NCBI GenBank assembly: GCA_937981585.1
Contig: CALJOA010000037.1
Coordinates: 1-43,037, forward strand
Reading direction: 5' to 3'
From: an uncultured Pirellulaceae bacterium
Lineage (GTDB): Bacteria > Planctomycetota > Planctomycetia > Pirellulales > Pirellulaceae
DNA length: 43,037 bases
Positions 15,126-33,576 of the stretch are shown piece by piece. Under the pieces are notes generated by a model, which had not been told where the DNA came from, made no database searches, and worked only from the letters and a program-made list of their open reading frames with translations. A program made the position numbers and the translations under genes. The stretch's first letter is position 1, and each line of letters begins with the position of its first letter.

Positions 15126-15932
15126 TTACTGGTTGTCCATCACTGTTTTGACAATCTCGCTATCGAAATAGTTGGTCGACATTGCAGCGTCGATCACCAC
15201 GAGCTGGGAGTTGATCCCCGAGGATCGCGGGCTGAGAAGAAAGCACGCTGCATTGGCGACTTCCTGAGTCGAAACTGCTCGGCCGCGCGGAATCACTTTC
15301 TCGGCATACAGATAGTTGTCAACGTAGCCGGGAATCCCAGCTGACGCCGACGTCTTGAGCAAGCCGGGGGCAACGGCGTTAAAGCGAACCTCAGAAAACC
15401 GGCTGAAGCTCTTTGACAGGAACGCCAACGAGCTGTCCAACGCCGCTTTCACGGGCGCCATAAAGCCGTAACTTTCACTGGCCATCGTAGTTGTCGAAAT
15501 CGAGATCGTGATGACCGAAGCATCTTTAACCAGAATGTCTTTGAACGCGTTGGCCAGCGCGACAAATGAGAAACAGGAAATGTCGATCGTGCGGAGAAAT
15601 TGTTGCTTGGTCGTTTCGTGAAACGGGCGAATTCCGGCTTCGTCATACGCAGCAAAGGCGATCGAGTGGACCAAGCCATGAATCTCGGGAAACTCGGCGG
15701 CGATTTCGTCGCGGACACGGTCGATCTGGTCTTCGAATTCGACATCGCAAATGAAGCACGGTCGCTCACCCATGAGCTTGGTAACCGACTGGCGCCGTTC
15801 GGGGCTGCGGACCACGTAGACGACGCGGGCGCCGGCTTCTTCAAGCGTCTTGCCGATGTGCCAAGCGACGCTTTTCTTGTTGGCGACACCAAACACAACG
15901 ATCGTTTTGCCAGAGAGTTGTAGAAAGTCCAT
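15126..15932 (-). CDS. fabI: Enoyl-[acyl-carrier-protein] reductase, FabI-like
   Basis: The 268-residue short-chain dehydrogenase matches FabI, which reduces the enoyl double bond in the last step of each fatty-acid elongation round. Evidence is the [10 protein letters not shown] nucleotide motif (15-24), the HSIAFA stretch (89-94), and the Y155-x6-K162 catalytic spacing that sets FabI apart from other SDRs. The C-terminal part (about 185-250) holds the substrate loop and VVIDAAMS. Start is the ATG at 15932 with GGAAA upstream. It is the last gene of the fabZ-like and CrtI-like set, from which it is separated by a 189-base gap with a palindrome. It may serve that pathway and not bulk lipid synthesis. 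Confidence 0.85.
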
Positions 15933-16016
15933 TTGGTTTCCAATGCCTAGTAACTCAGATTGAGCAGAACGTACGTTGATTCGATTTTCACGTGCTTAAC
16001 GAATTCTCCAAAGCAC

Positions 16017-16089
16017 TAATACCAGCCCGAAGCGCCAGCGAGGGAGCGTCGAACGGAGGAACCCTCGCTCGCGCTTCGGGCTGATATTA
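16017..16089. repeat. Palindromic repeat, CCCGAAGCG family
   Basis: Arms 16017-16044 and 16062-16089 are 28 bases each with two mismatches; the core is CAGCCCGAAGCG…AGCGAGGG. The element lies between the fabZ-like and fabI-like genes and could weaken read-through or protect the upstream mRNA, as REP elements do in other bacteria. Confidence 0.85.
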
Positions 16090-16121
16090 CTAACTTTAAC
16101 ATTGAAGGAAACTGGAAACGT

Positions 16122-16574
16122 TCATTCTGAGTGGTTATTTGGCGGCGCGATCGTGCAGGTGAAGCCCAGCCTCGCGGCCAGTTTGCCGTCGCATTTGACT
16201 TGCCCGGTCAGGTAGTAAGCCGTCGAAACGACTTCATCAAGTTTGACATGCATTTCAATCGTGTCACCCGGATGTACCATCTTTTTGAATTTGACGTCGC
16301 CCATCCGCGTTAGCACAGGGACACCATCGTCGGTAGACACGATGTCGGCCAACAACACAGCACCGGATTGCACTGCGGCTTCGCAGAGGATGACGCCCGG
16401 AACCAACGGATGACCGGGGTAATGACCTTGGAAAAAGTACTCATCGGCATGAAACGATTTGCGGCATACGATCGAGTTCTCTTCTTGCGAAACGATCTCG
16501 TCGACCAGCAACATTGGCGCTCGATGTGGAATCGAAGCGTGAATTTTTTCAAGCGTCGGATGAGATGCGGGCAT
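16122..16574 (-). CDS. fabZ: 3-hydroxyacyl-ACP dehydratase, FabZ-like
   Basis: This 150-residue hot-dog-fold enzyme removes water from 3-hydroxyacyl chains on acyl carrier protein. The active-site His is H51 in GHYPGHP and the acid is E65 in LVPGVILCEA, both in family-typical positions. It starts 21 bases after the CrtI-like gene, so the two are surely cotranscribed. Being tied to a desaturase-like enzyme, it may belong to a specialised chain-building pathway. The genome may hold another fabZ for normal lipids. Confidence 0.88.
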   Translation of the reverse strand: MPASHPTLEKIHASIPHRAPMLLVDEIVSQEENSIVCRKSFHADEYFFQGHYPGHPLVPGVILCEAAVQSGAVLLADIVSTDDGVPVLTRMGDVKFKKMVHPGDTIEMHVKLDEVVSTAYYLTGQVKCDGKLAARLGFTCTIAPPNNHSE

Positions 16575-16595
16575 GGTGGGGCTTTCAGCTGATTG

Positions 16596-18041
16596 TTAGC
16601 TCGACGCAACCGGTGACGTTGCGGGCATGCTCGACAAGTGATTGATCACATCGTTGGCGACGATGACGCCATAGTTGATCGTGCCGAGCCAACCCGACAT
16701 GATGATCCCGCAACTTCCGGCGTGATACAAACCTCGAACCTGTTGCGGAAGCGAACGGCTAACGGCCAGTCCCTCGAACTTGGTTCCAAAACTCGCCCCG
16801 TCGAGATGTTTCGTGTAATGCTCAAACGTAATTGGCGTGGCGGCTTCAGCGTGTACGATTCGCTCGCGGCAGTTGGGTACGTACTTTTCAAGTGCATCCA
16901 ACGTCGTCTCGACTAGATCCTGCTTGGAGGCTTCGTACTCTTCTTTCGACATCCCGGCCCAGTCATCGAAATTGGCGTTGGTGCTCGAAACGATCAGCGT
17001 TCTGCCTTTTCCTTCAGGCCGGGTGTCGGGATAATAGAACGAAAACGTGCGGCTGGTGATGTCACGGCTGAGAAGCAAGTCCGTTTGGAATCGTTCGGCG
17101 GTGCTGGAGAATAACAGGTCTCCGGTCTCTCGCGGAACCGTGTCCTCGGGATGCATCGCCATGTAAACCTGCGTGCTTGAATTGTTCAATCGGACTGCTT
17201 TGGCGTCATCAATGAACGAACCGTCGAATTTGTCTTCGCCGATCAAGTTGAAAATCGTCGAACGCAGGTTGGCGTTGGATACGACGGCGTTTGTCTTGAT
17301 CGTTTTTCCGTTTACCAGGACCGACTCAATTCCGTCGGAGCCGACATTGATTTTTTCAACGTCGCAATTGATTCGGACGTCGACTCCGTTGGCCTTCATT
17401 TCCTTTTCCATCGACTTGACGAGCTTGTCAGTGCCGCCTTGGAAAACGAAAACGCCTTTGGACATGAAATTTGAAAACACGATGCCGTAGGTCAGCGCGG
17501 GATCTTCAAGCGTCGATCCGTTGGCGTACGTGATCGGTTCCATCAGCAATCGAATGACATCCTCGCGACCGGGAAAGTACTCTTCGAATAGCTCGCGAGT
17601 CGTCTTGGTCTGGTCGTCGTAAAAGTTCATGTTCCGCGCGGCGTCGAAAAACTGATCTACATTCTCCTGAGCAACTCCGAAATCGGTGGTCAGCAGGCGG
17701 GTGAAGTCTTTCCGGTCGAACGTCGTGGTGAGCGAGAACATCGGATTGTCGAACCGAACGCCCTCCAGTTGCACAATTGAGTCGGCGATCTCCTTGGACC
17801 AGTAGCGGCGGCAGCTTTTCACCATGCCGTACGGAAAACCGTGCAGCGAGATATCAAAGATGTGCCCGCCAGGTCGTTTGAACCAAGTCGCCAGTCCGCC
17901 GAGTTTGTAGTGCTGCTCAAGCAGCAGGACCGAGAGCCCTTCTCTGGCAAGAATATTGGCAGACGTCAGTCCGCCCAAACCGCTTCCAATGACGACAACG
18001 TCGTAGCTGTCGGCGGCACCCTTGAGGAAATCTTTTGGCAT
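16596..18041 (-). CDS. CrtI/phytoene desaturase-like FAD oxidoreductase 1
   Basis: The 481-residue flavoprotein has the dinucleotide fold at the start ([15 protein letters not shown], then [16 protein letters not shown]) and the family's C-terminal FAD contact ([17 protein letters not shown]). Relatives include phytoene desaturases, carotenoid isomerases and the CrtI-like genes found in anammox lipid clusters. It is followed at once by FabZ-like and FabI-like genes, not by carotenoid genes such as crtB. That favours an acyl-chain or polyene substrate over a carotenoid; this is inference. The direction of the redox change cannot be read from the sequence. Confidence 0.82.
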
Positions 18042-18239
18042 GAATGGGCAAGCAAAATTCGTGGTTTGGTTTCAATTCGGTAGGTCCACAAGATAGATCA
18101 TCACCTCAGATTCTTCAATGGTCCGGGTGCTGTTTTGCAGCGATCGTTTAAGATTGCCGAGACGGAATAATTGCTGAGTTCGACAATTGGTGTCTGGCCC
18201 AACACTGGGCTATGAAGTCTGATCAAATAGGAGTTTCAA

Positions 18240-18413
18240 ATGGAGATTGAGAAGCAAGAGTATGAACGAATTGCGAGCGAGATTCACAGCGACACAAGTC
18301 CCGTAGGAATCGATGCCAAGAAAACACACATTTTGATTCTAGCGATGCTGCAGAAAATGAACGATCGCTTGGACGCGATGGAGCAAAAGATCCACGAGCT
18401 GGGGAGCAAGTAA
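18240..18413 (+). CDS. Small 57-residue protein with coiled-coil end
   Basis: An ATG at 18240 preceded by AGGAG (seven bases away) opens a 57-codon frame. The product is charged, with a likely C-terminal helix (LAMLQKMNDRLDAMEQKIHE) of heptad form. Divergent from the CrtI-like gene and about 155 bases ahead of the transporter gene. The strong ribosome site and amphipathic pattern support a real gene. I know no family for it. Confidence 0.6.
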   Translation: MEIEKQEYERIASEIHSDTSPVGIDAKKTHILILAMLQKMNDRLDAMEQKIHELGSK

Positions 18414-18424
18414 TTTGAGATGAC

Positions 18425-18508
18425 AGTACCAAGTACCAAGTACCAAGTACCGAGTACTGAGTACTGAGTACTGAGTACTGGGTACTGGGTACTGGGTACT
18501 GGGTACTG
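18425..18508. repeat. Heptamer tandem repeat (12 units)
   Basis: Twelve 7-base units run without a gap: three AGTACCA, one AGTACCG, four AGTACTG and four GGTACTG. The ordered drift along the array suggests growth by slippage. It sits in the leader of the transporter gene, ending 60 bases before its ATG. Heptamer arrays of this sort are known from cyanobacteria (STRR sequences). Confidence 0.95.
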
Positions 18509-18568
18509 ACTCAGTGCAGTCTGCGGCCCCGATGACTTTCTGGTTCGCCTATCAAAACAAGGCAGAGA

Positions 18569-19996
18569 ATGAACACGACCAAAGATCCTTATCAACTCGA
18601 TCCTTCAATGATCAGAGAGCCGCCCTCGGGGCTGATTGATAGTTTCAAATATCTCGGCCCTGGATTCATTTTGTCGGCTTCGATCGTCGGGTCAGGCGAG
18701 TTGATCGCGACCACGATCGTTGGAGCCAAAGCAGGTTTTGTGCTGCTGTGGTTCATCATTTTCAGCTGCATCGTCAAAGTCGCCGTGCAACTCGAGTTCG
18801 GAAAGCACGCGATCAGCTCCGGCGAAACAACAATGGCGTCGCTGAACTCCTTGCCTGGTCCGCGGTTGGGAAAAGCCAACTGGTCGATCTGGTCATGGTT
18901 GGTGTTAATGTTGATTAAGACAGTCCAACTGGGTGGAATCATCGGCGGTGTTGTCTTGGGGGCTGAGCAGTTGTTTCCTTGGCTGGGGACCGCGAACCTG
19001 ATCCAAACCGAGTCCATGACGATCCCGGTTCGGTATCTGACGACGCTTTTGATCGGGCTGTCCGTTTCGGTTCTGGTCTACCGCGGCTACTACCTCCTGC
19101 TGGAGAAAGCTTCTTTGATCATGATCGGGTTGTTTACCGTCATGACTTTGGTTTCATTGATCATGTTGCAGACGACCGAGATGGCCGTGACAGGCGCGGA
19201 GCTTGGCACGGGGTTGACGCCCAGCATTCCTTCCGAAGCGGCGCTGTTGCTGGTCGCCATGGGCGCGTTTGGAATCACCGGCGTCGGTGGCGATGAAATC
19301 ATGGCTTACAACTATTGGCTGATCGAAAAAGGCTATGCTGCCTACACCGGACCTCGAGACGACTCGCCCGAGTGGACTCGCCGGGCCAAGGGCTGGATTC
19401 GCGTGATGTACTGGGACGCGATTCTGGCGATGGTCTGTTACACGTTGATGACGTCAATGTTTTATTTGTTAGGTGCGGCGATCCTGCATCGCAATGCAAT
19501 GGTGCCTCAGAACGACGAACTGATTTCGACGCTTGGCACAATGTACACGCAGACGCTCGGCCCGGGAGCGAGAGTCGGGTTTGTGCTCGGCGCCGTTGTG
19601 GTGCTTTACTCGACGATGTTCGCGGCTCTGGCGGCCTGGACTCGCCTGTTTTCCGACGCGTTTAGTCAGATCGGTATGTTCGATTTTCGAAACTCTGTTT
19701 CAAGACGACGGGCGATCGGATTCCTCGCCTGGGTGTTCCCCGTGTCGTGGACGTTCTTGTTTCTGTTCTTCAAGAAACCCGGGTTGTTGGTGATCATTGG
19801 AGGAGTGATCACTGTTGTCATCCTTCTAATTGTTGTTTACGCGGCGCTTTACTTTCGCTATCGACGACTTGATGAGCGGCTTAAGCCCAGCCGGATCTAT
19901 GACGTGACGCTGTGGATCAGCGCGTTGGCGATCTTGGTCGTTGCAGGGTTGTCTGGGTCCAAGGTGATCACGGAACTCATTGGCTGGGCGCGGTAG
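18569..19996 (+). CDS. Nramp-related membrane transporter
   Basis: The 475-residue protein has about eleven membrane segments and aligns by pattern with the Nramp metal-ion transporter superfamily: GPGFILSASIVGSGELIATT for the first helix and MGAFGITGVGGDEIMAYNYW for the sixth. The usual metal-binding DPGN and MPH motifs are absent, replaced by IVGSGE and GVGGDE. So this is probably a divergent Nramp-related carrier; Mg, or even a non-metal substrate, is possible. An AAGG site precedes the ATG. The heptamer array lies in its leader. Confidence 0.78.
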   Translation: MNTTKDPYQLDPSMIREPPSGLIDSFKYLGPGFILSASIVGSGELIATTIVGAKAGFVLLWFIIFSCIVKVAVQLEFGKHAISSGETTMASLNSLPGPRLGKANWSIWSWLVLMLIKTVQLGGIIGGVVLGAEQLFPWLGTANLIQTESMTIPVRYLTTLLIGLSVSVLVYRGYYLLLEKASLIMIGLFTVMTLVSLIMLQTTEMAVTGAELGTGLTPSIPSEAALLLVAMGAFGITGVGGDEIMAYNYWLIEKGYAAYTGPRDDSPEWTRRAKGWIRVMYWDAILAMVCYTLMTSMFYLLGAAILHRNAMVPQNDELISTLGTMYTQTLGPGARVGFVLGAVVVLYSTMFAALAAWTRLFSDAFSQIGMFDFRNSVSRRRAIGFLAWVFPVSWTFLFLFFKKPGLLVIIGGVITVVILLIVVYAALYFRYRRLDERLKPSRIYDVTLWISALAILVVAGLSGSKVITELIGWAR

Positions 19997-20232
19997 TGAT
20001 GTACGCAGCGATTTAAAATCAATTCGAATTCGCACAAACTTACGATTAGAGATAAGGCGCATCCAGGAAGCAGTCTTTGCGGATTAGGGAAGCGAGCCGT
20101 CCGTCAGGTTCGCCGATTCGTTCGTGGCGATCCGTTGGCGCCGACACAACTTTAACTCTCGCCAATCTACGCTTCATCAGCGACAATGGAGGCTTGAAAA
20201 AACATGGGTTCATGGGATAGGAAAGGCCGATT

Positions 20233-23200
20233 ATGCTGGGCAATCAGGAGCAAATTGAAACACTGGAGCGGACTACCTTTCCCGGCAAAGCCGGCGAGCA
20301 ACAGCTAGTTGAATATCTCAACTTGAAACTTGCGGCCAACAATCTGCCGACGTTTGGTTCGCTTGAAGATTCACCGCTGCTTCAGATCGGCGGAGCCCTT
20401 CTTACGAGCATCCGTGAGAAGAATAAGGTGTTGGCTGCTCATCTATGTCCCGTAGACCAGTACATCAATGACTTTTTGTGCGAATACCTGAGTGACGTGG
20501 ATTCGAACGATCGTTGGTTGCCTTCGCCTGCATTTAATCTGGAGCGTCATGGATTGGCGCGTGTCTTGTCGTTGCCTCCAGATAGCGACCATTTCAGTTC
20601 GGACATCGTCAAATCGTATCGAGTTCACCAGGGAGTGCTCCACAATCCAGACAAAGACCGCCGTACGACCGCTGGTGTGTTTCACGTTTGCGAAGGCGGA
20701 TTGCCGATCCCGGCAGACAAGAAGTCTGTCCCTAAGAACACTTTCGCAGCGCTTCTCAAACGCGCCCTCGATCCTCCTCGCGAGTTGATGCGATTGCCAT
20801 TCACGTCGACGCAAGAAGAGCAAGCCGAAACGTTTGTGTCGTTGATGTTGCGGCCGGTTATGTGTCCTGAAGTCACTGGATTTACAAGCGAGAAACGATG
20901 TGAAGTCCGATTCTTTGTACCCGGAAATCTGGTCAGCAATCTCGATTTCGTGGAGTCAATTTTTGGCAACGCCGGCGACCCTACCCTCGCCAGCAACGAC
21001 GCGAGACTTGATGTTGAACATTGGTCGGGGCATACCGGCTGTGTGATCCTCGCTCCGCATCTAATTCGGTTGACGAAAAAAGAAGTCGGTTTGCCGCACG
21101 TCAACGATGCCACCGATTTGCAAAAACGGGACGGCATGTGTTGGGAGAATGAGTCGGAGCTTTACAACGACGGCACGGCTTTCAAAATCGTCTGCCGAGA
21201 CCATCGCGGAGTCGCAGTCACAGTAATTGCTGACAACTACTTCGGTTACTGCAAGAAGGAAGTCAAATCAAACATCAGCTATGCAGCCAACCTGATGGGT
21301 TTGTGCGAAGAAGAACACGGTGGCGGAGCGTTAGCGTTTCCGCGATTCGATCTGGGCGAGAACGTTGAGCCAAGTAACTTTCGCCAAAACGACCCCCACA
21401 ACTTCCAGGAACTGACTGAGTTGCTGGGCGACCGCATCGTTGTCAAACCCGAAGGCTACGCTGTTGACGCCAAGTATGCGGATGTCGTGTATATCCCCGA
21501 AAATTCCAACATTCGGCTGCGACAACAAACGATCCGCTGGGAGTCTGATGGGCAAGAGCAAACGCTGAAGCTTCAGCCCGAGGTGACCTACGTCTTGCCA
21601 TCCGGCTATCGCATAGAAATGGTTCGTCCGGATCAACGGCAACGCTGGCGGTTGGTTGGAACCAACCCAGAGGGCACGCTTTGCCACAAGCCCTGCACCG
21701 TCTCGGGTGGTGGTAAGTCGGAAATCTCCAAGCCGATTGAGGATGCGATCATCAATGGCCCGATCATTACGGCTGATTTCAAAGAAGATTTTGCTCGAGT
21801 CGTTGAGCTTACCAAGAAGAAATACGATGGCCGTCACAAGAATCCGTACCAACCGGTCAAGCCCAGTCGTCCACTGCTCAGCCCTGAGCGAACGCTGGGT
21901 TCTGCTGTTCGATTGCTGACGCCCAGCGACGAATATACCGATGTTTATAACGATTGGCTGCGCTCGATTCCGCGAACGATTCGGGATATGGTTCTGGTTG
22001 TCAAGCGATTTTACCGGCCCGAGTGGGGCGACGACTGGATGTCTCGCTTCAGCGTTGACAGTGTTAACGGACTGCAGGGGTTTGAGCTGAAGTACCGCAA
22101 GGAGAAACTTCGTTCGACCTACGTTCGCGTCGGTTTCGAAGAAGACGGATCCTGGCGTACGTTCGCGCTGCGGAAAGACTTCTTCCCGGCGGAGAAGATT
22201 CAGGTTGAAGATGACATTACGGCTTCCGTCGTCGTTCCGGCGGATCGGTTGAAGCATCTTCATCCGGACCTCAAGCAGGACGCTTACAAATTCGTGATGA
22301 ACTGCGAGCATCGGTTGTTCCAGCGGCCCGACGAAGCCATCGTCCGCGGCTACGACAAGACAACTGAAAGAGACTTTTCGGCAACAGGAAACTTTTTCGC
22401 CAACTACGAACCGCTTTCGCTCGAAACGGCCGAGGCGATGGTCGAAGATACGATCCTGTTCGGGCATTTTAGCCAGCCAATTCAGAACAGCATCAATGAG
22501 TTCGTTGAGTCAAAAGCTGATTTCTGCGTTTCGACTTCTCACCCGAGAGTCGTCAACGGCAAGCCATCGAAGAACCCTCGTTATCTTCAGGATCGTCCGG
22601 ATCTTGAGGACCCGCGTTCAATGTATCTGGCGGAGCTGGGTGCACGGCTCAATCGTCGTGTCCCGCTGTCCGACGCAGTTCTCTTCCCCGTCAACTCTGT
22701 TCTTCCGGGGCGGCGTAACAACCCAGCGGATCACCAAGCAGGGATTCGACCGCTGGCTGTTTACAATCCGATTCACTTTCAAGAGTGGCCCGAGTTGTTC
22801 ATGGAGTTCATCGCGAGTCTGACTGGAAAATCGCCTTCAACAACCGGTGCTGGTTCCGAGGGCGCGTTGACCAAGGGGCCGTTCAATTCGCTTCCGCCGA
22901 TCATTGATCTAAACAACGCACTGGTTAGTTACTTGCTCACCAACAACCGTTGCTTTACGACCTCGGCTGGATTCATTGGTCCGAAGTATCGTTTCGATCA
23001 CGATATCAGTCTTTTGATTCCCGAGGTCTGGTCGCGAATGTTCATCAACGAGCGTGAGCCGGAGTATTTGATCGAGAATGGCTACATGGAAAAGCTTGAA
23101 GACTTTGAGCATGAGGGCAAAACCGTCTTGGCCAGTCGGCTTGGTTACCGAATCACGGACCGCTTTGTGAACCAGTTCTTTGGTCGCGTGTTCAGCGACT

Positions 23201-23712
23201 CTTCGAATGTTTTCACCGAGGAAATGCTCAAGCCGGAATTGCAAAGCATGGGCGATTACGTAGACGGGATCGACAATATCGTTTCAACTCAAAACCGAAT
23301 CGCGAAGCTTTATCTCGAAGATGGTTCAGTCGAGCTGGCGATCCCTCCATTGAAAGTTCTGTTGACGATCATGGCCGAAGGAAGTCACGAAGGTCGCGAC
23401 GTGCATCATCCTGAGGTTCGTCAGATGTTCACCAAAGAAGCCATGTTCAACAGTCAGTGGTACCAAGAGCGGTTGCTTGCTCGCAAGCAAGTCGACCGAA
23501 TTCAGACGACGCGTCAAATCGATTATCTGCAACGTCGGCTCAATCAAGGCGAATTGCCAAACGAGGAAGCCCACAATCTGGAGTCTTCGATCGCTTCACT
23601 GAAGGAAAAGCTCGCTTCGATTGATACGCCGGAGTATTGGGAGTCGCTTGGGAATACCTTGGGTACTGATCCAGCCGTTTTGGCGCCGGTTGAAGCTGAG
23701 ATGATGAGCTGA
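20233..23712 (+). CDS. Large cytosolic protein, possible PPi-type PEP carboxykinase
   Basis: The product has 1159 residues and no signal peptide, membrane segment or repeat. Strikingly conserved-looking blocks are RDHRGVAVTVIADNYFGYCK (about 320-340), HGGGALAFPRFDLGEN (about 360-376), and LTGKSPSTTGAGSEGALTKG (about 862-881), the last being Gly/Ser/Thr-rich and phosphate-loop-like. From memory, pyrophosphate-dependent PEP carboxykinases are of this length and carry a similar late block; they interconvert oxaloacetate and PEP with PPi. That is a hypothesis, not a match I could test. A charged coiled coil (about 1095-1140) ends the protein. The ATG at 20233 has AGGAAAGG upstream. Confidence 0.6.
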   Translation: MLGNQEQIETLERTTFPGKAGEQQLVEYLNLKLAANNLPTFGSLEDSPLLQIGGALLTSIREKNKVLAAHLCPVDQYINDFLCEYLSDVDSNDRWLPSPAFNLERHGLARVLSLPPDSDHFSSDIVKSYRVHQGVLHNPDKDRRTTAGVFHVCEGGLPIPADKKSVPKNTFAALLKRALDPPRELMRLPFTSTQEEQAETFVSLMLRPVMCPEVTGFTSEKRCEVRFFVPGNLVSNLDFVESIFGNAGDPTLASNDARLDVEHWSGHTGCVILAPHLIRLTKKEVGLPHVNDATDLQKRDGMCWENESELYNDGTAFKIVCRDHRGVAVTVIADNYFGYCKKEVKSNISYAANLMGLCEEEHGGGALAFPRFDLGENVEPSNFRQNDPHNFQELTELLGDRIVVKPEGYAVDAKYADVVYIPENSNIRLRQQTIRWESDGQEQTLKLQPEVTYVLPSGYRIEMVRPDQRQRWRLVGTNPEGTLCHKPCTVSGGGKSEISKPIEDAIINGPIITADFKEDFARVVELTKKKYDGRHKNPYQPVKPSRPLLSPERTLGSAVRLLTPSDEYTDVYNDWLRSIPRTIRDMVLVVKRFYRPEWGDDWMSRFSVDSVNGLQGFELKYRKEKLRSTYVRVGFEEDGSWRTFALRKDFFPAEKIQVEDDITASVVVPADRLKHLHPDLKQDAYKFVMNCEHRLFQRPDEAIVRGYDKTTERDFSATGNFFANYEPLSLETAEAMVEDTILFGHFSQPIQNSINEFVESKADFCVSTSHPRVVNGKPSKNPRYLQDRPDLEDPRSMYLAELGARLNRRVPLSDAVLFPVNSVLPGRRNNPADHQAGIRPLAVYNPIHFQEWPELFMEFIASLTGKSPSTTGAGSEGALTKGPFNSLPPIIDLNNALVSYLLTNNRCFTTSAGFIGPKYRFDHDISLLIPEVWSRMFINEREPEYLIENGYMEKLEDFEHEGKTVLASRLGYRITDRFVNQFFGRVFSDSSNVFTEEMLKPELQSMGDYVDGIDNIVSTQNRIAKLYLEDGSVELAIPPLKVLLTIMAEGSHEGRDVHHPEVRQMFTKEAMFNSQWYQERLLARKQVDRIQTTRQIDYLQRRLNQGELPNEEAHNLESSIASLKEKLASIDTPEYWESLGNTLGTDPAVLAPVEAEMMS

Positions 23713-23783
23713 GCTAGAGGTCGTTCAGATCTTAGTTGGCGGGTGTCGGATCTAAGTGCCAGTTTCTGGGATTGGATTGGTAA

Positions 23784-23846
23784 AGTAGCACGGCTGTCCC
23801 AGCCGTAAACACGCTGCATCAACACGGCTGGGACAGCCGTGCTACT
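23784..23846. repeat. Perfect 23-bp hairpin
   Basis: Arms 23784-23806 and 23824-23846 (AGTAGCACGGCTGTCCCAGC…) are exact reverse complements. It lies just after the large 1159-residue gene and before the DUF1559 gene. GTAGCACGGCTGTCCCAGCCGTG is a sequence I associate with dispersed planctomycete repeats. Only this copy is in the window. Confidence 0.9.
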
Positions 23847-23874
23847 ATCGATAAACGCTCAGTTTGAGTCAGCC

Positions 23875-24906
23875 ATGTCAAATTCCAACCATTCGAAACC
23901 GCGAAGTGCTGACGATTCGCCGTCGTTTCGATTTGGTATTTGGCACCTGCTTTACGGAACGGCTTTGATTGCTTCTGGGCTAGTCGTTGCCGGTCCGTGG
24001 AGTCTGTTGATTTCCGGTGTCGTTTTAGCTGGATGGTTTATCGCATACCGCGAAGATTCGGGCTGTTTGAATATGGTTATCTTCCTGGCAGTTTCGGTTG
24101 TTCTGATTGGGCTTTTTCTACCTGCGGTTGAAGTGTCCCGAGGCCCCTCCAGAAGAATCGTATGCCTCAACAATATCAGGCAGTGCATGTTGGCACTGCA
24201 CAGCTACGAATCAGCCTACACGCATATGCCCGAGGCTTATTCGGTTGACGATCAAGGGAGGCCGATGCACAGTTGGAGAGTTCGCATCCTCCCTTTTTTC
24301 GAGGAGGATTCCTTGTTTGCTTCCTATGATTTCAAGGAGCCTTGGGACGGCCCCAACAACTCTAAACTTGCGAACCAAATGCCTAGCGGTTTCCGTTGCC
24401 CTTCGATGCCCGACTCAAATAGCGAGACGACTTACAAACTCGTTTCTGATCCCGAGTCATTTTTCGATGCTGACAAGCGGCGCGATCTTGAAGATGCAGT
24501 TGACGGTAGTTCATGCACGATCGTGATGGTGGAAGATTGCAACAATCCCGTGAATTGGATGAAACCAGAAGGGATTTCGATTGAGGCTGCTATTGCTGGC
24601 ATCCTGTGCTCGGAGGGTTGCCACTGTGATCGTGAGGAGACGCTTCTTACCACGACCTACTTTGGGCCGGCCGTGGGTGTGCTTGACGATTCGGTGCATC
24701 GAATCGCGCCCAACGCAGATCCTGAGTCGCTTCGGCAAGCGTTAAGATTTGCCGACGGCCATTCGCCTGACGTGTCAGATTTCACTGGAACGCATGTCGT
24801 TCACAAGCCGCAGGGCTACATAGCGCTGGGCCTTTACCTGTTTCTGCTCGCACTGCCTGGCTGGTTTTGGCTAAGCCGAAAACGAATTCCCAAGCAGTCA
24901 GTGTAA
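23875..24906 (+). CDS. DUF1559-type prepilin-like membrane protein
   Basis: This 343-residue protein has three hydrophobic segments near the N-terminus (about 20-88), then the DUF1559 hallmark: RRIVCLNNIRQCMLALHSYE (a type II secretion G-like start) and the WRVRILPFFEEDSLFASYDF block. A C-terminal H-x9-DG-like element is seen near FADGHSPD, and a last membrane segment lies at about 318-336. Planctomycetes hold dozens of these proteins, of unknown function. I chose the ATG at 23875; an earlier GTG falls inside the hairpin. Confidence 0.78.
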   Translation: MSNSNHSKPRSADDSPSFRFGIWHLLYGTALIASGLVVAGPWSLLISGVVLAGWFIAYREDSGCLNMVIFLAVSVVLIGLFLPAVEVSRGPSRRIVCLNNIRQCMLALHSYESAYTHMPEAYSVDDQGRPMHSWRVRILPFFEEDSLFASYDFKEPWDGPNNSKLANQMPSGFRCPSMPDSNSETTYKLVSDPESFFDADKRRDLEDAVDGSSCTIVMVEDCNNPVNWMKPEGISIEAAIAGILCSEGCHCDREETLLTTTYFGPAVGVLDDSVHRIAPNADPESLRQALRFADGHSPDVSDFTGTHVVHKPQGYIALGLYLFLLALPGWFWLSRKRIPKQSV

Positions 24907-24923
24907 GGTTGGCGTGGTTGCTC

Positions 24924-26327
24924 TCAGCCCCTTAGGCAGTGCATATTCGCCATCGATATCCCGCTCATCATCGCACCGATGATTCCCACAAATCCCTGAT
25001 CGGTTCCACACAAAAACAGATTGTTCAAATGGGTCCGTCCGTCGAGGACCTTGTCTGGCGATCCGTAAACGGCGCCATTGTCGTGCCACGTGAACCGATT
25101 GATTGTCGTCGGCGTAAACAGATCGGTGTCGATAACGTAAGGACGGAAGTCGGGCGTGTACTTCACACTGGCAGCGACACTGCGATCGTACCAGCGAAGT
25201 TTCTCCCGTTGGTACTCTTCCTCTGACAACCCCGCCCAGCGATCGTAATCCGCAATCGTAGTGATCCGCACGACACCGTCAGCAAGCTGGCCCTCTTCGT
25301 CGGCGTAGACGTAGTTGTTGGGCGAGCAGACAACGCCAGTTCGCGTATCACAAAGCTCGTCAGCAGGTCGCTCCCAGTGGAACTTCTCAGAATCGTTATA
25401 AAAGACGATTGTGTCATCGTTTCCGATCGACGATGGCTCACGATCCAAAACTGAAATCGACTCGATGAACGTCAGTTGGCCGGCCAGACGCGGGTCAAGT
25501 TCGCTGGTGTCGGAGCACATTCGCATCGTCTCCAGGCGCCCGGCTGAGGAAAGGATCCGCTTACCGGTCAACTGCTCGCCGTTATCGAGTTCGACACAGA
25601 CGGCTTGTTCGTTTTCCACGTGGATTGTCTTGACGCCCTTCCGGAGCTTCAACTCACCGCCAAGCCCTCGAAACCGTTTGACCAGGTGCTTCAGGATCAA
25701 GCGAACGCCTTTGTATGGTCGCGCGAATCCTTCGAGAAAGATGCTGCGAAACATGATGCAAAACTGCCCCCAAGCCATGTCGTGCTCGGCTGCGTTTCCG
25801 TACCACATCAGTGGACACAGGATCATCTCGATTAAAAGCGGATCAGAGATGGTGTCGCTGAGAACCTGTCGCCCTGAGATTTCGAATGCGGCTTGGTCGA
25901 GGTCATCGTAGTCGGCGATCTTGGCGACCAAGGCTTCGAAGTTATCGACTTGGCCGGGAAAGACTTTTTTGACTTCGCTGCGCAGCAGATCCAGCTCGTT
26001 GCTGAATCGCAGTTCGTGATCAGGAAATGCAATTCGTGAACCCTTCTGGGGAGCAAGAGCGAAGTCGTCGTACTTGAATCGCAGTTGCCGAAGGATTCGC
26101 GCCAGCGGGCCCTTCTTGGTACCCTTCTGAGTGAAGTTCGTGACCGCGTGCAGACCGACGTCGTAGTTGCGACCGTTGACGCGGTAGAACGAATTGAGGC
26201 CACCGATCGTGTAATGTCGTTCAAGAATGCAGACACGTTGATCGTAGTGCGCAAGCCGAATTCCGGCGGCCAAGCCCGACATTCCAGCGCCGATAATGAT
26301 TGTGTCGTAGGGTTGGTTGTCGGACAT
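24924..26327 (-). CDS. CrtI/phytoene desaturase-like FAD oxidoreductase 2
   Basis: This 467-residue flavoprotein is a paralogue-like partner of the one at 16596. It has TIIIGAGMSGLAAGIRLAHY and ILERHYTIGGLNSFY at the N-terminus and the C-terminal FAD contact NLFLCGTDQGFVGIIGAMMS. It begins 26 bases after the acyl carrier protein gene, in line with the ketosynthase, so these three form an operon. The pairing with a carrier protein suggests the substrate is an ACP-bound chain. No carotenoid genes adjoin. Confidence 0.83.
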   Translation of the reverse strand: MSDNQPYDTIIIGAGMSGLAAGIRLAHYDQRVCILERHYTIGGLNSFYRVNGRNYDVGLHAVTNFTQKGTKKGPLARILRQLRFKYDDFALAPQKGSRIAFPDHELRFSNELDLLRSEVKKVFPGQVDNFEALVAKIADYDDLDQAAFEISGRQVLSDTISDPLLIEMILCPLMWYGNAAEHDMAWGQFCIMFRSIFLEGFARPYKGVRLILKHLVKRFRGLGGELKLRKGVKTIHVENEQAVCVELDNGEQLTGKRILSSAGRLETMRMCSDTSELDPRLAGQLTFIESISVLDREPSSIGNDDTIVFYNDSEKFHWERPADELCDTRTGVVCSPNNYVYADEEGQLADGVVRITTIADYDRWAGLSEEEYQREKLRWYDRSVAASVKYTPDFRPYVIDTDLFTPTTINRFTWHDNGAVYGSPDKVLDGRTHLNNLFLCGTDQGFVGIIGAMMSGISMANMHCLRG

Positions 26328-26353
26328 TGTTGCTTCGTCGAAAATCGACTTGC

Positions 26354-26614
26354 CTATGACGCCACGCAGTCAACCATTTTCGGCGTCAGATAGTTGACGG
26401 TGCTGAACATCGAGGCCAACTCAGGATAGTCCTGCTCTGGAACGTTGACTTTGTAGCGCTTGCGAAGCTCCATCACGATGTCCAAAAAATCCATGCTGTC
26501 GAGTTCAAGCTGATCTCGAAAGTTGACTTCGTCTTTAAGATCCGTCAAGTCTTCATCGGGAGCGATGTCGGTCAAGATATCAAGGATGACGTTTTTAATT
26601 TGTTCAGGGGCCAC
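26354..26614 (-). CDS. Acyl carrier protein
   Basis: The 86-residue carrier has the phosphopantetheine site S40 in LELDSMDFLD and helical flanks. The start is a GTG at 26614, chosen because GGAG lies six bases upstream and the product then opens MAPEQIKNVI; a TTG eight codons earlier is also open. It is a second-type, pathway-bound ACP in form (DSMDFLD instead of the DSLDTVE usual in AcpP). It sits between the ketosynthase and the CrtI-like oxidoreductase and would hold the growing chain. Confidence 0.88.
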   Translation of the reverse strand: MAPEQIKNVILDILTDIAPDEDLTDLKDEVNFRDQLELDSMDFLDIVMELRKRYKVNVPEQDYPELASMFSTVNYLTPKMVDCVAS

Positions 26615-26733
26615 AATGTTCTCCAATCCATACGTCAATCCGAACCATCCAAACTCAGGATCATCCCAATCGACGACTACAAACGTTGACCAACAGCAAA
26701 CAGCCGATCAACGGAGTCTTTTAGTTACGCTAA

Positions 26734-27993
26734 CTACATTCGCTTGATTACGGTTGCTGAATTGATGCCCAGCATCCCAAACGAGTTGTTCAAAATATAG
26801 TCGATTTTTTCGATTTCGCGAGGCTCGTTTTTCACCAAACCGGGGAGTTCACACTCCGGGTCCAAGTCGTCAACGTTGATAGTTGGATGGACGACACGAT
26901 CTTCAAAAGCGACCAGATTTCCCGCCAATTCTAACGCACCTGCGGCCCCCATCGTATGCCCGATGAAACTTTTGGCGTTATTTACGTACGTTTTTTCTGA
27001 CGCACCGAACACACGTCTGACAGCATCGCACTCCAAGGCGTCTCCCATCCCCGTTCCGGTAGCGTGAGTGCTGACGATATCCACATCCTCGGCATTGATG
27101 TGTGCTCTGGACAACGCCATGTTCATGCACTGCGATTGACGTTCAGGATTGGGCAATACGAAATCAGTCGCGTCGGTATTGATTGCGTAACCGACAATCT
27201 CGCCGTAGATTTTTGCGGAGCGGGCTTTGGCGTCCGACAAACGTTCGAGCGTGTACAAACATCCGCCTTCGGAGACGACGATCCCGTTGCGATTCTTGTC
27301 GAACGGACGCGAGGCCTTGGTCGGATCATCGTGAGTTGCCAGTGCGCCCTGGCTGGCGAATCCAGCGAAAATTCCAAACGTGTGAATGCTCTCCGAAACA
27401 CCGCCAGCGATTGCAAGGTCGCATTCGTTCAAGCGAAGCATCTGCAAGCCCTGAATCAAACCGGCGTTGCCAGCCGCACAAGCCGCCCCAATCGTGTAGT
27501 GAGGCCCTGTGATCCCCAGGTTCAGCGCCACCTCTCCGGCCGGATTGTTTGCGACAGTTCGCGGATTGTGGTGATGCGACCAGACTTTCACGTCGTAGTC
27601 GAAACCACGAATCTCGTGAATTTCGGATTCGGTTTCCACGTTGCCGTGTTCCGTCACGCCGACGTACACGCCAACTCGCGAGCGATCCGTGTTTTCCCAA
27701 TCGATTCCCGAGTCGTTGATGGCTTCGTGAACGCAATAACAACCGACGCTGCCGGCGCGGGTTCCACGACGAGCGTCTTTGCGAGTTTGATACTTGCGAA
27801 CGTCAAAGTCGCAGACTCCAGCGATGGTTTTACCAAAGTAACGGATTTCGTAGTCTTCGACGCCGCTTTTACCATTAAGAAGCGACTCGCGAAACTCGCC
27901 AAGCGTGTTTCCGTTGGGGGACGTTAATCCGATTCCAGTAATCACGACTCGCTGGGAATCTGGAAGCTCGTCAGGTTTAGGGTAGGAAATCAT
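26734..27993 (-). CDS. Beta-ketoacyl-ACP synthase (KAS II-like)
   Basis: This 419-residue condensing enzyme has the complete Cys-His-His active site: C172 in GAACAAGN, H310 in STHATGTGMGD and H346 in SFIGHTMGAAG, with the conserved K341. It joins malonyl-ACP units to an acyl chain. By sequence it resembles FabF, but its acyl-binding parts (HHHNPRTVANNP, 140-151) look unlike housekeeping FabF. As first gene of the ACP/CrtI-like operon it probably makes a special chain. The ACP gene follows after 119 bases. Confidence 0.88.
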   Translation of the reverse strand: MISYPKPDELPDSQRVVITGIGLTSPNGNTLGEFRESLLNGKSGVEDYEIRYFGKTIAGVCDFDVRKYQTRKDARRGTRAGSVGCYCVHEAINDSGIDWENTDRSRVGVYVGVTEHGNVETESEIHEIRGFDYDVKVWSHHHNPRTVANNPAGEVALNLGITGPHYTIGAACAAGNAGLIQGLQMLRLNECDLAIAGGVSESIHTFGIFAGFASQGALATHDDPTKASRPFDKNRNGIVVSEGGCLYTLERLSDAKARSAKIYGEIVGYAINTDATDFVLPNPERQSQCMNMALSRAHINAEDVDIVSTHATGTGMGDALECDAVRRVFGASEKTYVNNAKSFIGHTMGAAGALELAGNLVAFEDRVVHPTINVDDLDPECELPGLVKNEPREIEKIDYILNNSFGMLGINSATVIKRM

Positions 27994-28976
27994 TTAATCG
28001 GTTTCGCAAGGTTATCGCGCGAATCAATCAGGCCACGGAGTCAGATCAATCGAACCAGAAACAGTTTTCGGGTGTCATGGAACAAGCGACAAAACGGAGG
28101 CGTTTGCACCAAGAAAAGTTACCGCGTGGGCCATTTTTAGACAACCGGCGCTGGCGAATTGGGTAAAGATAATCACGCGAATATTACCTGAGCATAACCT
28201 AACCCGAGTTTAGTTCTGATTGGGGTTCGGGTTGCTGGTGGTCGAGCCCAAACGAGCCCCCAGTTTTCAAAGCCAGAACGAACCCTCAGAATCTGGGGCT
28301 GCTCGCTCTTGCCTCGCGATTCGACCCCCGCCACCAGGCTCGTCGCGTGATGAAAACCTCTTAGATTCGTTGGGAGTGAACCGCTAATGTTGAGTTTGTC
28401 GCGCGTGCAATAAAAAGACTGAGTTCGTCCCACTTCCATGCGATCTCGGATAGTCATTCCCTCGCAGGCGCGCTTGAATCGACCGTTTGGGCAATATTGG
28501 AGGCATGGTCGTCGCGATGAGCCAAAAGGAGATGTCGTCGCGTGAGCTGGCCAATTCAGACAGCACGATCTGACAGAAGAATCTGATTTAAAAGTTGGCT
28601 AGCGGGCGACTGCTACAAAGCGATGCATCAAACGCTGAATCTAGTGGTGCTATCTTCAACCGCAAGATGGGTGGTTACCAGCGTTTAGGCAAAACGAAAT
28701 CAAGGAATCCAGCGCTATAGTCAATCAAGGTTTCTCGGTTTAACGCTGCATCTTGCCCGCAGAAAGTGATTGCAAGCTAGTCGGGTAATTTGAGAAAGCC
28801 CTCTTTTTAACTGCGGTAGCTCGAAGCTGTTGCCGATCAATCAAACACGGTTAGCTCAATCCTATTACCTCTACTTTCCGCAATAGTGCGTTTTCTATTG
28901 GGATCGGGAATGGTAGAGCGAGCCGCAAAACGATTATGAGTCAAGCAACACCTTCACCTCTGAATTGCAGAAAAAC
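27994..28976. other. Long non-coding gap (983 bases)
   Basis: The left part should contain the promoter of the ketosynthase operon, the right part that of the PEP-CTERM gene. The only structure I see is the nested inverted repeat at 28235-28337. Short open frames exist but have no support. Confidence 0.5.
28235..28337. ncRNA. Candidate structured element (nested stems)
   Basis: CTGGTGG-TCGA (28235-28245) pairs with TCGA…CCACCAG (28321-28337) around a six-base bulge, and inside it CGAGCCCCCAG (28253-28263) pairs with CTGGGGCTGCTCG (28293-28305). Two coaxial stems of this length are unlikely by chance. It may be a structured RNA, a leader, or one more intergenic repeat. The orientation is not known. 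Confidence 0.35.
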
Positions 28977-29681
28977 ATGAACAGAATTACACAACTCGCC
29001 GTCATTGCTGCGGTCACTTTGATGTGCAGCACATCTTTTGGACAGTTCACTTTCATTACCCCAAACAACCTCAGTCCCTCACAAGGTGTCGGGGTTGGCC
29101 CACTTGGAAGCACTGGAAGCACCGTCAATTTCGATATCAGCAGCAACCTCGGCCTATCGACCGGCTCGGTCATTCTAGGGGTTGATAATGGTTTCACCAA
29201 CGCCACACTTTCAGCCGCTGGCAATAGCGTGTGGACGGTCAGCGATGATGAAGAAACCACTTTCACTTTGAGTGGTTCGGTTCCAGTTCGCGCACAGGTT
29301 AGCCACGGACGATTCCTCGGATCAGATGTTGCCGCAAACGGGACTCAAGCTCGCGACGGAATCCGGACTCCAGCCACTGAAAGTTGGGTATTGGTTTCGA
29401 ATCTGGATCCTGACTATCAGCAAGGATCGTTTCAGCCTGGCGCTGTAACTACGCAGTTTGTCGATCACATTAACACGTCCTCCACCATCATTGAGAATAA
29501 TTCAACCGATTTCTTGTGGGAATCGACTCAGGCCGTTTCGACGTTTACTGTGTTTTCAAATAACACAACTGCTTTGAACAACAACTACTCTGTTGCATTC
29601 TCAGCTGTTCCCGAACCAGCCAGTGGAATGTTGATGACTTTTGCAACGGGTTTGTTCTTCCTTCGTCGCAAGCGTAGCTAA
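28977..29681 (+). CDS. PEP-CTERM secreted protein
   Basis: The 234-residue protein has a signal peptide (MNRITQLAVIAAVTLMCSTS, cut near SFG) and a C-terminal sorting tail: VPEPAS, a hydrophobic helix and RRKRS. Exosortase-type enzymes cut such tails and hand the protein to the envelope or extracellular matrix. The middle part is a Ser/Thr/Asn-rich beta-type domain with no recognised enzyme motif. The ATG at 28977 is chosen over a TTG four codons earlier. A strong terminator follows at 29751. Confidence 0.85.
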   Translation: MNRITQLAVIAAVTLMCSTSFGQFTFITPNNLSPSQGVGVGPLGSTGSTVNFDISSNLGLSTGSVILGVDNGFTNATLSAAGNSVWTVSDDEETTFTLSGSVPVRAQVSHGRFLGSDVAANGTQARDGIRTPATESWVLVSNLDPDYQQGSFQPGAVTTQFVDHINTSSTIIENNSTDFLWESTQAVSTFTVFSNNTTALNNNYSVAFSAVPEPASGMLMTFATGLFFLRRKRS

Positions 29682-29799: not shown

Positions 29800-30810
29800 T
29801 TAATCCCTTGTTGAGCTGTATTTATGTGCAAGCGAATCGCCAAGCCGCTTCATTCCCTCAGAATTGGAAACACGCGGGTAGTAGCCAAATTCGTCTTTCG
29901 CTCGGCTGATGTCAAAATAATGGTTTTTCGCCAATTGAGCGGCGAGGAATCGAGTCATTCGTGGCTCCGATTTCAAATTACCCAGCTCATACAGCGACTC
30001 CAGTGCGTAACCCAACCGATAGGCCCAGTAATAGGAGATCGACTGACGAACTCGAGGCAAACCGGCCAAACCAAGGACTTCGTTGATCCAGCCCCAGCAG
30101 TTGACCGGATCGTCTTGCGATAGAAAGTAAGCACTCCCGCAAACTGGCGAATCGGGGCCCATTGCCTCAGCGGCCTGGATGTGAGCCATCGCAGCGTTGT
30201 CAATGTAAATCGTGTCGACTTGGTTGGTACCGTCCCCAACCCGCCTAAGCTGTTTGGATTTGGCTCGTTTGATCAATCGCGGAATCAAATGCCGATCGCC
30301 CGGCCCCCAGATTAGATGTGGGCGAAGCGCACAAGTCATCAAGTCGTAATGATCGTTGGCTTCAAGAACATACTTTTCGGCCAGAGCCTTTGAATGCGGG
30401 TAATGGCAAAGCCACTTTCGCGGATACGGCGCCGACTCGTTCACGTTGGCTTGGTGCTCGCCGTCGAACGTCACGCTGGGGCTGCTGGTGTAGACCAGTC
30501 TGCGGACTTTGTTTTGGATACACGCCTCGACGACGTTGCGAGTTCCAATCGTGTTGGTGCCATGGAAGAGTTTCCAAGGGCCCCAGATTCCGGATATCGC
30601 AGCCGTGTGGAACACCACTTCCTGGCCTTCGCAGGCTTGCAGAACATTTTCGAAACTGCGGATGTCACCGTGAACGGCGTTGACATTGAGTCCGGGCGGA
30701 ACGTCTTCGCGACGCCGCGTCATCGCGGTGACTTCGTACCCTTGCTCAAGCAACTGCTGAACCAATTTTGAGCCAAGGAATCCATTGGCCCCAGTGACTA
30801 ATGCCTTCAC
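29800..30810 (-). CDS. Extended SDR, 3-beta-hydroxysteroid dehydrogenase/OleD-like
   Basis: The 336-residue protein has the extended-SDR nucleotide motif TGANGFLG (7-14) and the active site YTSSPSV with Y-P-H-S-K (YxxxK, near 137). The family includes NSDHL-like sterol enzymes, sugar epimerases and OleD, the beta-keto acid reductase of long-chain olefin synthesis. The SSPSVTFDGEHQ region resembles OleD and 3-beta-HSD more than sugar epimerases. No oleA, oleB or oleC is nearby, so the role stays open. The start is a GTG at 30810. Confidence 0.78.
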   Translation of the reverse strand: MKALVTGANGFLGSKLVQQLLEQGYEVTAMTRRREDVPPGLNVNAVHGDIRSFENVLQACEGQEVVFHTAAISGIWGPWKLFHGTNTIGTRNVVEACIQNKVRRLVYTSSPSVTFDGEHQANVNESAPYPRKWLCHYPHSKALAEKYVLEANDHYDLMTCALRPHLIWGPGDRHLIPRLIKRAKSKQLRRVGDGTNQVDTIYIDNAAMAHIQAAEAMGPDSPVCGSAYFLSQDDPVNCWGWINEVLGLAGLPRVRQSISYYWAYRLGYALESLYELGNLKSEPRMTRFLAAQLAKNHYFDISRAKDEFGYYPRVSNSEGMKRLGDSLAHKYSSTRD

Positions 30811-31900: not shown

Positions 31901-32070
31901 CCATTTTAAGGGTGTCCAACTTCTATAATCGTTTTTACTCGAAAATTGTCAAGTAAATCCAACAAGCCAAGCCGGTTCCGCAAACTCGTTTTTCCTTGTT
32001 AAAACGAGGGCAACTTTATCCGAAGTAGTTGAGTTTTGAACTATTCCAATTTGAATTGCAGGAGGTTGCG

Positions 32071-33572: not shown

Positions 33573-33576
<4 letters not shown>
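32071..33576 (+). CDS. Subtilisin-like (S8) PEP-CTERM protein with altered catalytic triad
   Basis: The 501-residue product has a signal peptide (about 20-50), an S8-type domain (about 75-330), a beta-sandwich domain (about 340-470), and a PEP-CTERM tail (VPEPSS, helix, KRRR). The S8 triad can be traced: E82 in VGLVEA where Asp is usual, H122 in SSHATTVA, oxyanion N173 in TNHSY, and S270 in TSFATP. So one residue is changed and activity is uncertain. AGGAGG five to six bases before the ATG at 32071 fixes the start; ATG at 32128 has a GGAGA site and a neater signal peptide. Its stop overlaps that of dnaB. Its base use (more A/T) differs from neighbours. Confidence 0.82.

Follow-up and report, generated by a model that had tools for sequence, protein, structure and literature searches.

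A six-gene planctomycete operon with two CrtI-type flavoproteins is linked to Ole genes and probably supplies them with a polyunsaturated acyl chain

Introduction

The window analyzed here is a stretch of 43,037 nucleotides from an uncultured Pirellulaceae bacterium (assembly GCA_937981585.1, contig CALJOA010000037.1, positions 1 to 43,037 of the forward strand), and our subject is a set of six genes within it. These encode a ketosynthase (KAS), an acyl carrier protein (ACP), two CrtI-type flavoproteins (CrtI1 and CrtI2), a dehydratase (FabZ) and a FabI-like enoyl-ACP reductase. An initial annotation, made from the sequence alone, had taken them for two separate operons that supply an unusual acyl chain, and had likened them to the clusters proposed for ladderane lipids in anammox planctomycetes.

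Results

Six genes for acyl-chain synthesis

The six genes share the minus strand:

26734-27993, minus strand: KAS, a FabF-type ketosynthase, gene 1 of the conserved set (Pfam ketoacyl-synt, 136 bits)
26354-26638, minus strand: ACP, a dedicated acyl carrier protein with a D-S-M-D-F site (Ser48) (Pfam PP-binding, 29.7 bits)
24924-26327, minus strand: CrtI1, a flavoprotein of the CrtI/amine-oxidase type (Pfam Amino_oxidase, 50.9 bits)
16596-18041, minus strand: CrtI2, the second CrtI-type flavoprotein (Pfam Amino_oxidase, 71.4 bits)
16122-16574, minus strand: FabZ, a hot-dog 3-hydroxyacyl-ACP dehydratase (Pfam FabA, 68.3 bits)
15126-15932, minus strand: a divergent FabI-like enoyl-ACP reductase (Pfam adh_short_C2, 189 bits)

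The positions and strand first assigned to these open reading frames (ORFs) are correct, and Pfam agrees with every name that they were given. Catalytic residues are near-invariant among relatives: Cys172, His310, Lys341 and His346 of KAS and Ser48 of ACP in alignments of 36 orthologues, His51 and Glu65 of FabZ among 37 sequences, and Tyr155 and Lys162 of the FabI-like protein among 28. A second Tyr is conserved in the classical FabI motif; the window protein has Ile-Ser at this place, and it falls far under the curated FabI cut-offs of NCBIfam (best model 164 bits, cut-off 362). The window KAS also misses the curated NCBIfam cut-off for FabF, and the window FabZ scores 113.7 bits with the NCBIfam FabZ model (cut-off 113).

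One operon, broken in the window

Orthologues of KAS, CrtI1 and CrtI2 were sought in 117 genomes from the order to which the window belongs, and found in 82, 83 and 84 genomes, respectively; 80 genomes hold all three, 85 hold at least one, and the remaining 32 hold none. For 20 of the genomes with CrtI1, long contigs being preferred, the surrounding stretch of about 20 kb was then fetched, and ACP, FabZ and FabI were tracked in these loci only. In 14 of the 20, all six genes stand on a single strand as KAS-ACP-CrtI1-CrtI2-FabZ-FabI, a recurrence beyond chance; in ten of these complete loci every gap stays below 400 bp, and four have gaps of 1.0 to 4.3 kb. CrtI2 lies outside the fetched stretch in five of the 20. 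The set therefore does co-occur in related genomes, as the initial annotation had supposed. Gimesia-titled assemblies likewise contain KAS-ACP-CrtI1-CrtI2-FabZ, CrtI2 at the least is present in the cultured Thalassoglobus neptunius KOR42, and a contig search with a single-sequence query returned 15 loci, all of them planctomycete.

The window has its CrtI1 and CrtI2 halves about 7 kb apart, with the following between them:

18042-24923: interruption between CrtI1 and CrtI2, holding three plus-strand genes
18569-19996, plus strand: Nramp transporter
20233-23712, plus strand: protein of 1159 amino acids, without a Pfam or NCBIfam match at E 0.001
23839-24906, plus strand: ORF of 355 amino acids

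Because CrtI1 and CrtI2 adjoin each other in the ten gap-free loci of relatives, the six genes are best read as one conserved planctomycete operon, of which the window holds a broken copy. Thus, the two operons first described stand in their gene content and positions and fall as separate units, being a single operon that is interrupted in this genome. Another genome of the order, G091, is broken at the same junction, its halves lying about 56 kb apart with OleA close to the CrtI2-FabZ-FabI half.

It is very unlikely that these are housekeeping genes of type II fatty acid synthesis (FAS II) that happen to stand together. All parts except the CrtI proteins do belong to FAS II families, but the source genome (an assembly 80% complete, in 158 contigs) contains seven KAS and three FabZ copies, so that the window KAS and FabZ are not its sole housekeeping copies, in line with the specialized role first ascribed to them. 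Furthermore, the KAS and the FabI-like protein miss the curated cut-offs of their housekeeping counterparts, and 32 of the 117 order genomes hold none of KAS, CrtI1 and CrtI2.

The operon is linked to Ole genes

Going upstream from KAS, one meets the nearest further conserved gene of the window after 1.8 kb. It best matches OleD, from a pathway that the initial annotation overlooked, and the first account of the locus thus understates what is there:

29800-30810, minus strand: a reductase like OleD, which acts in the head-to-head route to hydrocarbons (359 bits with NCBIfam NF042423 and 355.5 bits with NF042422, against cut-offs of 580)

OleD stands immediately ahead of KAS in 11 of the 20 order loci. 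Over the full 20, OleA is present in eight loci, OleC in ten and OleD in 11, and 14 loci have one or more of the three. In one of them (L045) the run reads OleA (on the opposite strand), FabI-FabZ-CrtI2-CrtI1-ACP-KAS-OleD, a further gene and OleC; this further gene encodes 368 amino acids, with a weak zinc-ribbon match at most. The OleA and OleC proteins of L045, which pass NCBIfam PRK09258 and PRK09274, were used as references, and relative to them the source genome has an OleA on contig C144 (59% identity) and an OleC on contig C154 (55%). OleD- and OleC-specific models also matched in the source genome, under cut-off.

An OleA orthologue occurs in 83 of the 117 order genomes, namely in 83 of the 85 with the operon and in none of the 32 others, four of which hold an OleA relative of 35-36% identity. 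OleC occurs in 81 (75 with the operon and six without), and each of the 85 genomes with KAS, CrtI1 or CrtI2 has OleA or OleC. These counts are not corrected for relatedness, which inflates them; the exception is contrasts within families, and the match between operon and OleA persists inside the families of mixed state (f2, f10 and f17). The link of the operon to Ole is strong. The presence of ole genes in Planctomycetes has itself been reported already (PMC7158056).

Two further Ole neighborhoods were observed. In family f8, three genomes without operon or PfaD (G059, G100 and G104) carry an OleA of 35-36% and an OleC of 37-40% identity within a few kb of each other, the OleC frames being about 900 codons long. 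In the source genome, OleC on contig C154 (L185, 8322-13106) lies beside a RimK-like ligase, a methenyl-tetrahydromethanopterin (H4MPT) cyclohydrolase and a dihydrouridine synthase. Relatives, too, have OleC next to a RimK-like gene, for which a tetrahydromethanopterin:glutamate ligase is the best model there, and the pairing is probably an H4MPT (C1) gene neighborhood and not part of the operon system.

FabG and OleB in other classes of the phylum

A wider sample comprised 294 genomes of the phylum, in which CrtI2 was scored as a rule on five first-look candidates per genome; it was found in 66, and the surroundings were fetched for 20. Some of these loci unite the operon and Ole genes in a single run. 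For example, locus L122, from another class, reads OleA-OleB-OleC-OleD-HTH-KAS-ACP-CrtI1-CrtI2-FabZ-FabI on one strand, and L124 reads KAS-ACP-CrtI1-CrtI2-FabG-FabZ-FabI-OleA-OleB-OleC. The gene marked HTH in L122 (5571-6173), which has a counterpart between OleD and KAS in L119 (14664-15518), encodes a small MarR/ArsR-like helix-turn-helix protein, a possible regulator.

FabG is found between CrtI2 and FabZ in nine of the 20 phylum loci (L115, L116, L118, L120, L121, L124, L127, L128 and L129); the 20 order loci all lack it there. The ketoreductase first noted as missing from the window is thus part of the operon in some distant loci.

A family search of flanking ORFs located OleB-like hydrolases of the haloalkane-dehalogenase type in eight of the 20 phylum loci; in seven the hydrolase adjoins Ole genes, and in the remaining one, L121, some 6 kb separate it from the operon. 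An OleB motif scan gave no match. With these distant-class proteins as queries, no OleB-like match above 200 bits was found in the 20 order neighborhoods, the rest of those genomes lying outside the search. Since the order neighborhoods yielded no OleB, the operon could there feed an Ole pathway that ends in a polyunsaturated beta-lactone and not in a hydrocarbon, and oleACD clusters without oleB are indeed held to make beta-lactones (PMC7064751). We nevertheless consider this end product unlikely, given the OleB-like hydrolases that accompany the operon in other classes, and the OleB of order genomes may lie elsewhere, beyond the stretches searched.

Mutual exclusion with PfaD

As a marker of the Pfa synthase we used PfaD (TIGR02814, above cut-off). 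The source genome has no TIGR02814 match, and no operon-bearing genome of either sample (117 and 294 genomes) has a PfaD above cut-off. Within the order PfaD occurs in three genomes, none with the operon; G008 and G026 each hold a relative of OleC (47% identity), and in G021 both OleA and OleC are missing at the limits applied. In the phylum sample PfaD is present in 43 and CrtI2 in 66 of 294 genomes, and they share none, vs about 9.7 expected (Fisher p 1.3e-5, relatedness ignored). The exclusion also appears within families: in f21, which includes Gimesia and Thalassoglobus, CrtI2 is found in 14 of 16 genomes and PfaD in the remaining two, and in f66 both occur, in different genomes.

This mutual exclusion suggests that the operon makes the same kind of product as Pfa. 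It thereby tells against a reading in which the chain made for Ole is special without being polyunsaturated (branched, monounsaturated or hydroxylated) and the CrtI proteins carry out another redox step. Ole does accept saturated, monounsaturated or branched chains (PMC6463001), and ordinary chains are used by Ole in Xanthomonas. However, a private KAS, a private ACP and two desaturase-like proteins would seem needless for ordinary chains, and this reading appears improbable to us.

Two flavoproteins outside the carotenoid enzymes

Both CrtI-like proteins exceed the cut-off of Pfam PF01593, which places them in the CrtI/amine-oxidase flavoprotein superfamily. With the best curated carotenoid model of NCBIfam, CrtI1 scores 83.9 bits (cut-off 586.9) and CrtI2 104.8 bits (cut-off 549.7); with crtI_fam (cut-off 238.1) they score 45.7 and 87.9 bits. 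These missed cut-offs rule out a carotenoid CrtI, CrtD or CrtISO identity and support the initial annotation on this point. Their AlphaFold models (predicted local distance difference test, pLDDT, 90 for CrtI1 and 87 for CrtI2) have as nearest solved fold the gamma-carotenoid desaturase 4rep, with template-modeling (TM) scores, by query length, of 0.76 and 0.71 at 16% identity. The top NCBI model for CrtI1 is a carotenoid isomerase family, far under cut-off. An isomerase role for the CrtI-type proteins, resting on this fold likeness and the below-cut-off family match, is therefore a guess.

Comparison with anammox-type clusters

Anammox genomes were sought with a hydrazine-synthase model, which proved unspecific (57 of the 294 genomes matched, one of these 57 belonging to the window's order), and ten genomes of families f62 and f93 were chosen by how large and how many their hydrazine-synthase matches were. 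A CrtI2 search found a match in nine of the ten. ACP-FabZ-KAS-KAS-CrtI stand consecutively in four of the five loci fetched, which is the published order of kuste3603-3607 (PMC4790861) and supports the choice of genomes.

In a tree of the CrtI-type proteins, CrtI1 (18 rows), CrtI2 (21) and anammox CrtI (seven) form three clades with support of 100/100, 100/100 and 100/99, above which the order is unsure, with long branches among the reference rows. CrtI1 and CrtI2 share about 23-28% identity with anammox CrtI (full-length pairs). Two anammox CrtI proteins score 226 and 241 bits to a protein of a Pseudalkalibacillus (Bacillaceae) plasmid and no more than 149 bits to CrtI1 or CrtI2. Orthology of CrtI1 and CrtI2 to the anammox proteins is ruled out by these separate clades and bit scores. 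The Pseudalkalibacillus hwajinpoensis plasmid locus (L180, 1-4428) encodes HAD-IIIC, ACP, E2-like, CrtI-like, enoyl-CoA hydratase and FabZ proteins, and of six reference proteins compared with anammox CrtI, the CrtI-like one from this locus matches best. Searches of plasmids for CrtI and KAS references known by name returned distant proteins only.

The KAS tree is less decisive. In its free form it separates operon KAS from anammox KAS, but a grouping with one anammox KAS is not rejected (approximately unbiased, AU, test, p 0.39). The operon has a single KAS, with active-site Cys, His and His kept, and lacks the pairing of a canonical with a Cys-less KAS; the second anammox KAS does not match the Cys pattern in four of four loci, and Kuste3606 is described as having Val at the position of the active-site Cys (PMC2649909). 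Pfam and NCBIfam scans of window genes from 13.4 to 35.0 kb, which took in part of the small ORFs, showed no radical S-adenosylmethionine (SAM) gene, and neither OleA nor OleC was found in the five anammox loci fetched. The best solved relatives of FabZ are 7qv0, which we take to be an anammox FabZ (the structure table names no organism), at 76.0 bits and 4h4g at 75.4 bits, so FabZ has no special anammox affinity.

The special relation to anammox ladderane clusters proposed at the outset is not supported by these comparisons. The same gene families do recur in the anammox-type ACP-FabZ-KAS-KAS-CrtI clusters, and the AU test leaves room for one KAS grouping, but the separate CrtI clades (with anammox CrtI closer to a Bacillaceae plasmid protein), the single Cys-bearing KAS, the lack of radical SAM among the scanned genes and the strong tie to ole set the operon apart. 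The likeness, as judged from the sequences, holds at the level of protein families only, and a relative of the ladderane machinery that makes a cyclized chain is highly improbable here.

Other features

Elsewhere in the source genome (L186, contig C15, 5933-8969) there is a second FAS II-like set, with a FabA/FabZ-fold protein (Pfam), weakly matched ACP-like and FabZ-like ORFs and then a KAS. The window also encodes a subtilase-family protein with a PEP-CTERM sorting motif (32029-33576, plus strand), and an ORF between KAS and OleD (28965-29681) is PEP-CTERM-like by eye.

Discussion

Gene order, co-occurrence with ole, exclusion with PfaD and conserved catalytic residues were all observed directly, and from them we infer that the operon is probably a dedicated type II synthase, making a polyunsaturated acyl-ACP for OleA and so leading to a C31:9-type hydrocarbon without Pfa, a large synthase described from marine bacteria whose role the operon seems to take over. 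The polyunsaturated nature of the product, the length of the chain and the reaction of the CrtI proteins are proposals drawn from the genes alone. Of the unusual polyunsaturated or cyclized chain first suggested for this locus, the polyunsaturated part is thus probably right, and the cyclized part fell with the ladderane comparison. A report by Sukovich in 2010 is said to place C31:9 in Planctomyces (Gimesia) maris.

In the pathway that we propose, KAS would elongate the chain on the operon's own ACP, the beta-keto group would be reduced by a FabG, which some distant loci carry inside the operon, and FabZ would dehydrate. FabI would saturate in those cycles that retain no double bond. In cycles that keep one, CrtI1 and CrtI2 may fix or move the double bond, perhaps by desaturation dependent on flavin adenine dinucleotide (FAD), or perhaps as redox-neutral isomerases, and would in this way stand in for the dehydratase/isomerase domains of the Pfa synthase. 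The polyunsaturated acyl chain would then be passed to OleA, which would join two chains head to head, after which OleD would reduce the beta-keto acid, OleC would form a beta-lactone and OleB would remove CO2 to leave a polyunsaturated long-chain hydrocarbon.

Several observations weigh against this pathway. Scoring was limited to the best first-look candidates of each genome. OleA, OleC and the operon lie on separate contigs in the source genome, and a divergent OleA or OleC occurs in five genomes that have neither operon nor PfaD (G059, G073, G100, G104 and G108). In the phylum sample, 12 of the 20 loci, the Gimesia-type ones among them, show no Ole gene, several of these stretches being short or ending at a contig edge, and no Ole gene was found in the fetched flanks (up to 10 kb on each side) of the Gimesia-type loci L111, L112, L133 and L146, the search being confined to these flanks. 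Around PfaD, ole genes are found in none of ten loci (eight genomes), and OleC is present in only two of the three PfaD genomes of the order, so the idea that Pfa and the operon both feed Ole is loosely shown in the phylum.

It is tempting to go one step further. There is, in our estimate, an even chance that the operon represents a second, independent route to polyunsaturated chains, in which a dissociated type II synthase with two CrtI-type flavoproteins that place the double bonds (one possibly a redox-neutral isomerase) takes the place of Pfa in feeding OleABCD in much of Planctomycetota, and which would offer a tractable model for the proposed ladderane desaturation. If true, biology would have a new source of polyunsaturated chains and of hydrocarbons. 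Among the matches listed in our literature search, no paper describes the combination of CrtI, FAS and ole in its title or the start of its abstract.

Comparison with known systems

The ladderane clusters kuste3603-3608 and kuste3335-3352 resemble the operon in bringing together ACP, FabZ, KAS and CrtI-like families (PMC4790861), and differ from it in a CrtI that is not orthologous and, according to the papers on the anammox side, in having radical SAM enzymes and, beside the first KAS, another that is non-canonical. When kuste3336 and kuste3607 took the place of CrtI in Escherichia coli, no lycopene is reported (PMC4790861). The CrtI-like proteins of anammox clusters have no assigned reaction, and the operon bears on the same question.

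Another parallel may be Desulfotalea psychrophila, for which Rattray and co-workers described C31:8 and C31:9 together with clusters of FAS II/CrtI-like (FabF/CrtI-like) genes and, in their account, no Pfa, and also noted C31:9 in planctomycetes (PMC2649909). Like the operon bearers, this organism has CrtI-like proteins and FabF paralogues; its cluster also has radical SAM enzymes, and the likeness is one of description only (PMC2649909). The origin of this C31:9 without Pfa was left open in that 2009 paper (PMC2649909), and the conserved, compact gene set described here points to a supplier of such chains in planctomycetes.

A counterpart in function would be Pfa with OleABCD in Shewanella and Photobacterium, where a dedicated synthase of polyunsaturated chains is coupled to OleA, C31:9 results and the loci sometimes adjoin ole (PMC6463001). 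In Shewanella, C31:9 is reported to require Pfa, whose predicted 16:4 chain OleA condenses; the two proteins interact, and the ACP domains of Pfa are the most likely site of contact (PMC6463001). Shulse and Allen suggested that the pfa-like clusters of some planctomycetes supply olefin precursors (PMC3098273). Pfa is a multidomain system, whereas the operon encodes separate type II proteins and two CrtI-type flavoproteins, and the two systems, as followed by PfaD and CrtI2, keep to different genomes throughout the phylum sample. With the OleABCD pathway itself the source genome shares relatives of OleA, OleC and OleD, the last inside the window. The chain sources described for this pathway are an ordinary synthase or Pfa, and a private type II synthase that contains CrtI-type proteins, as proposed here, is of a different kind.

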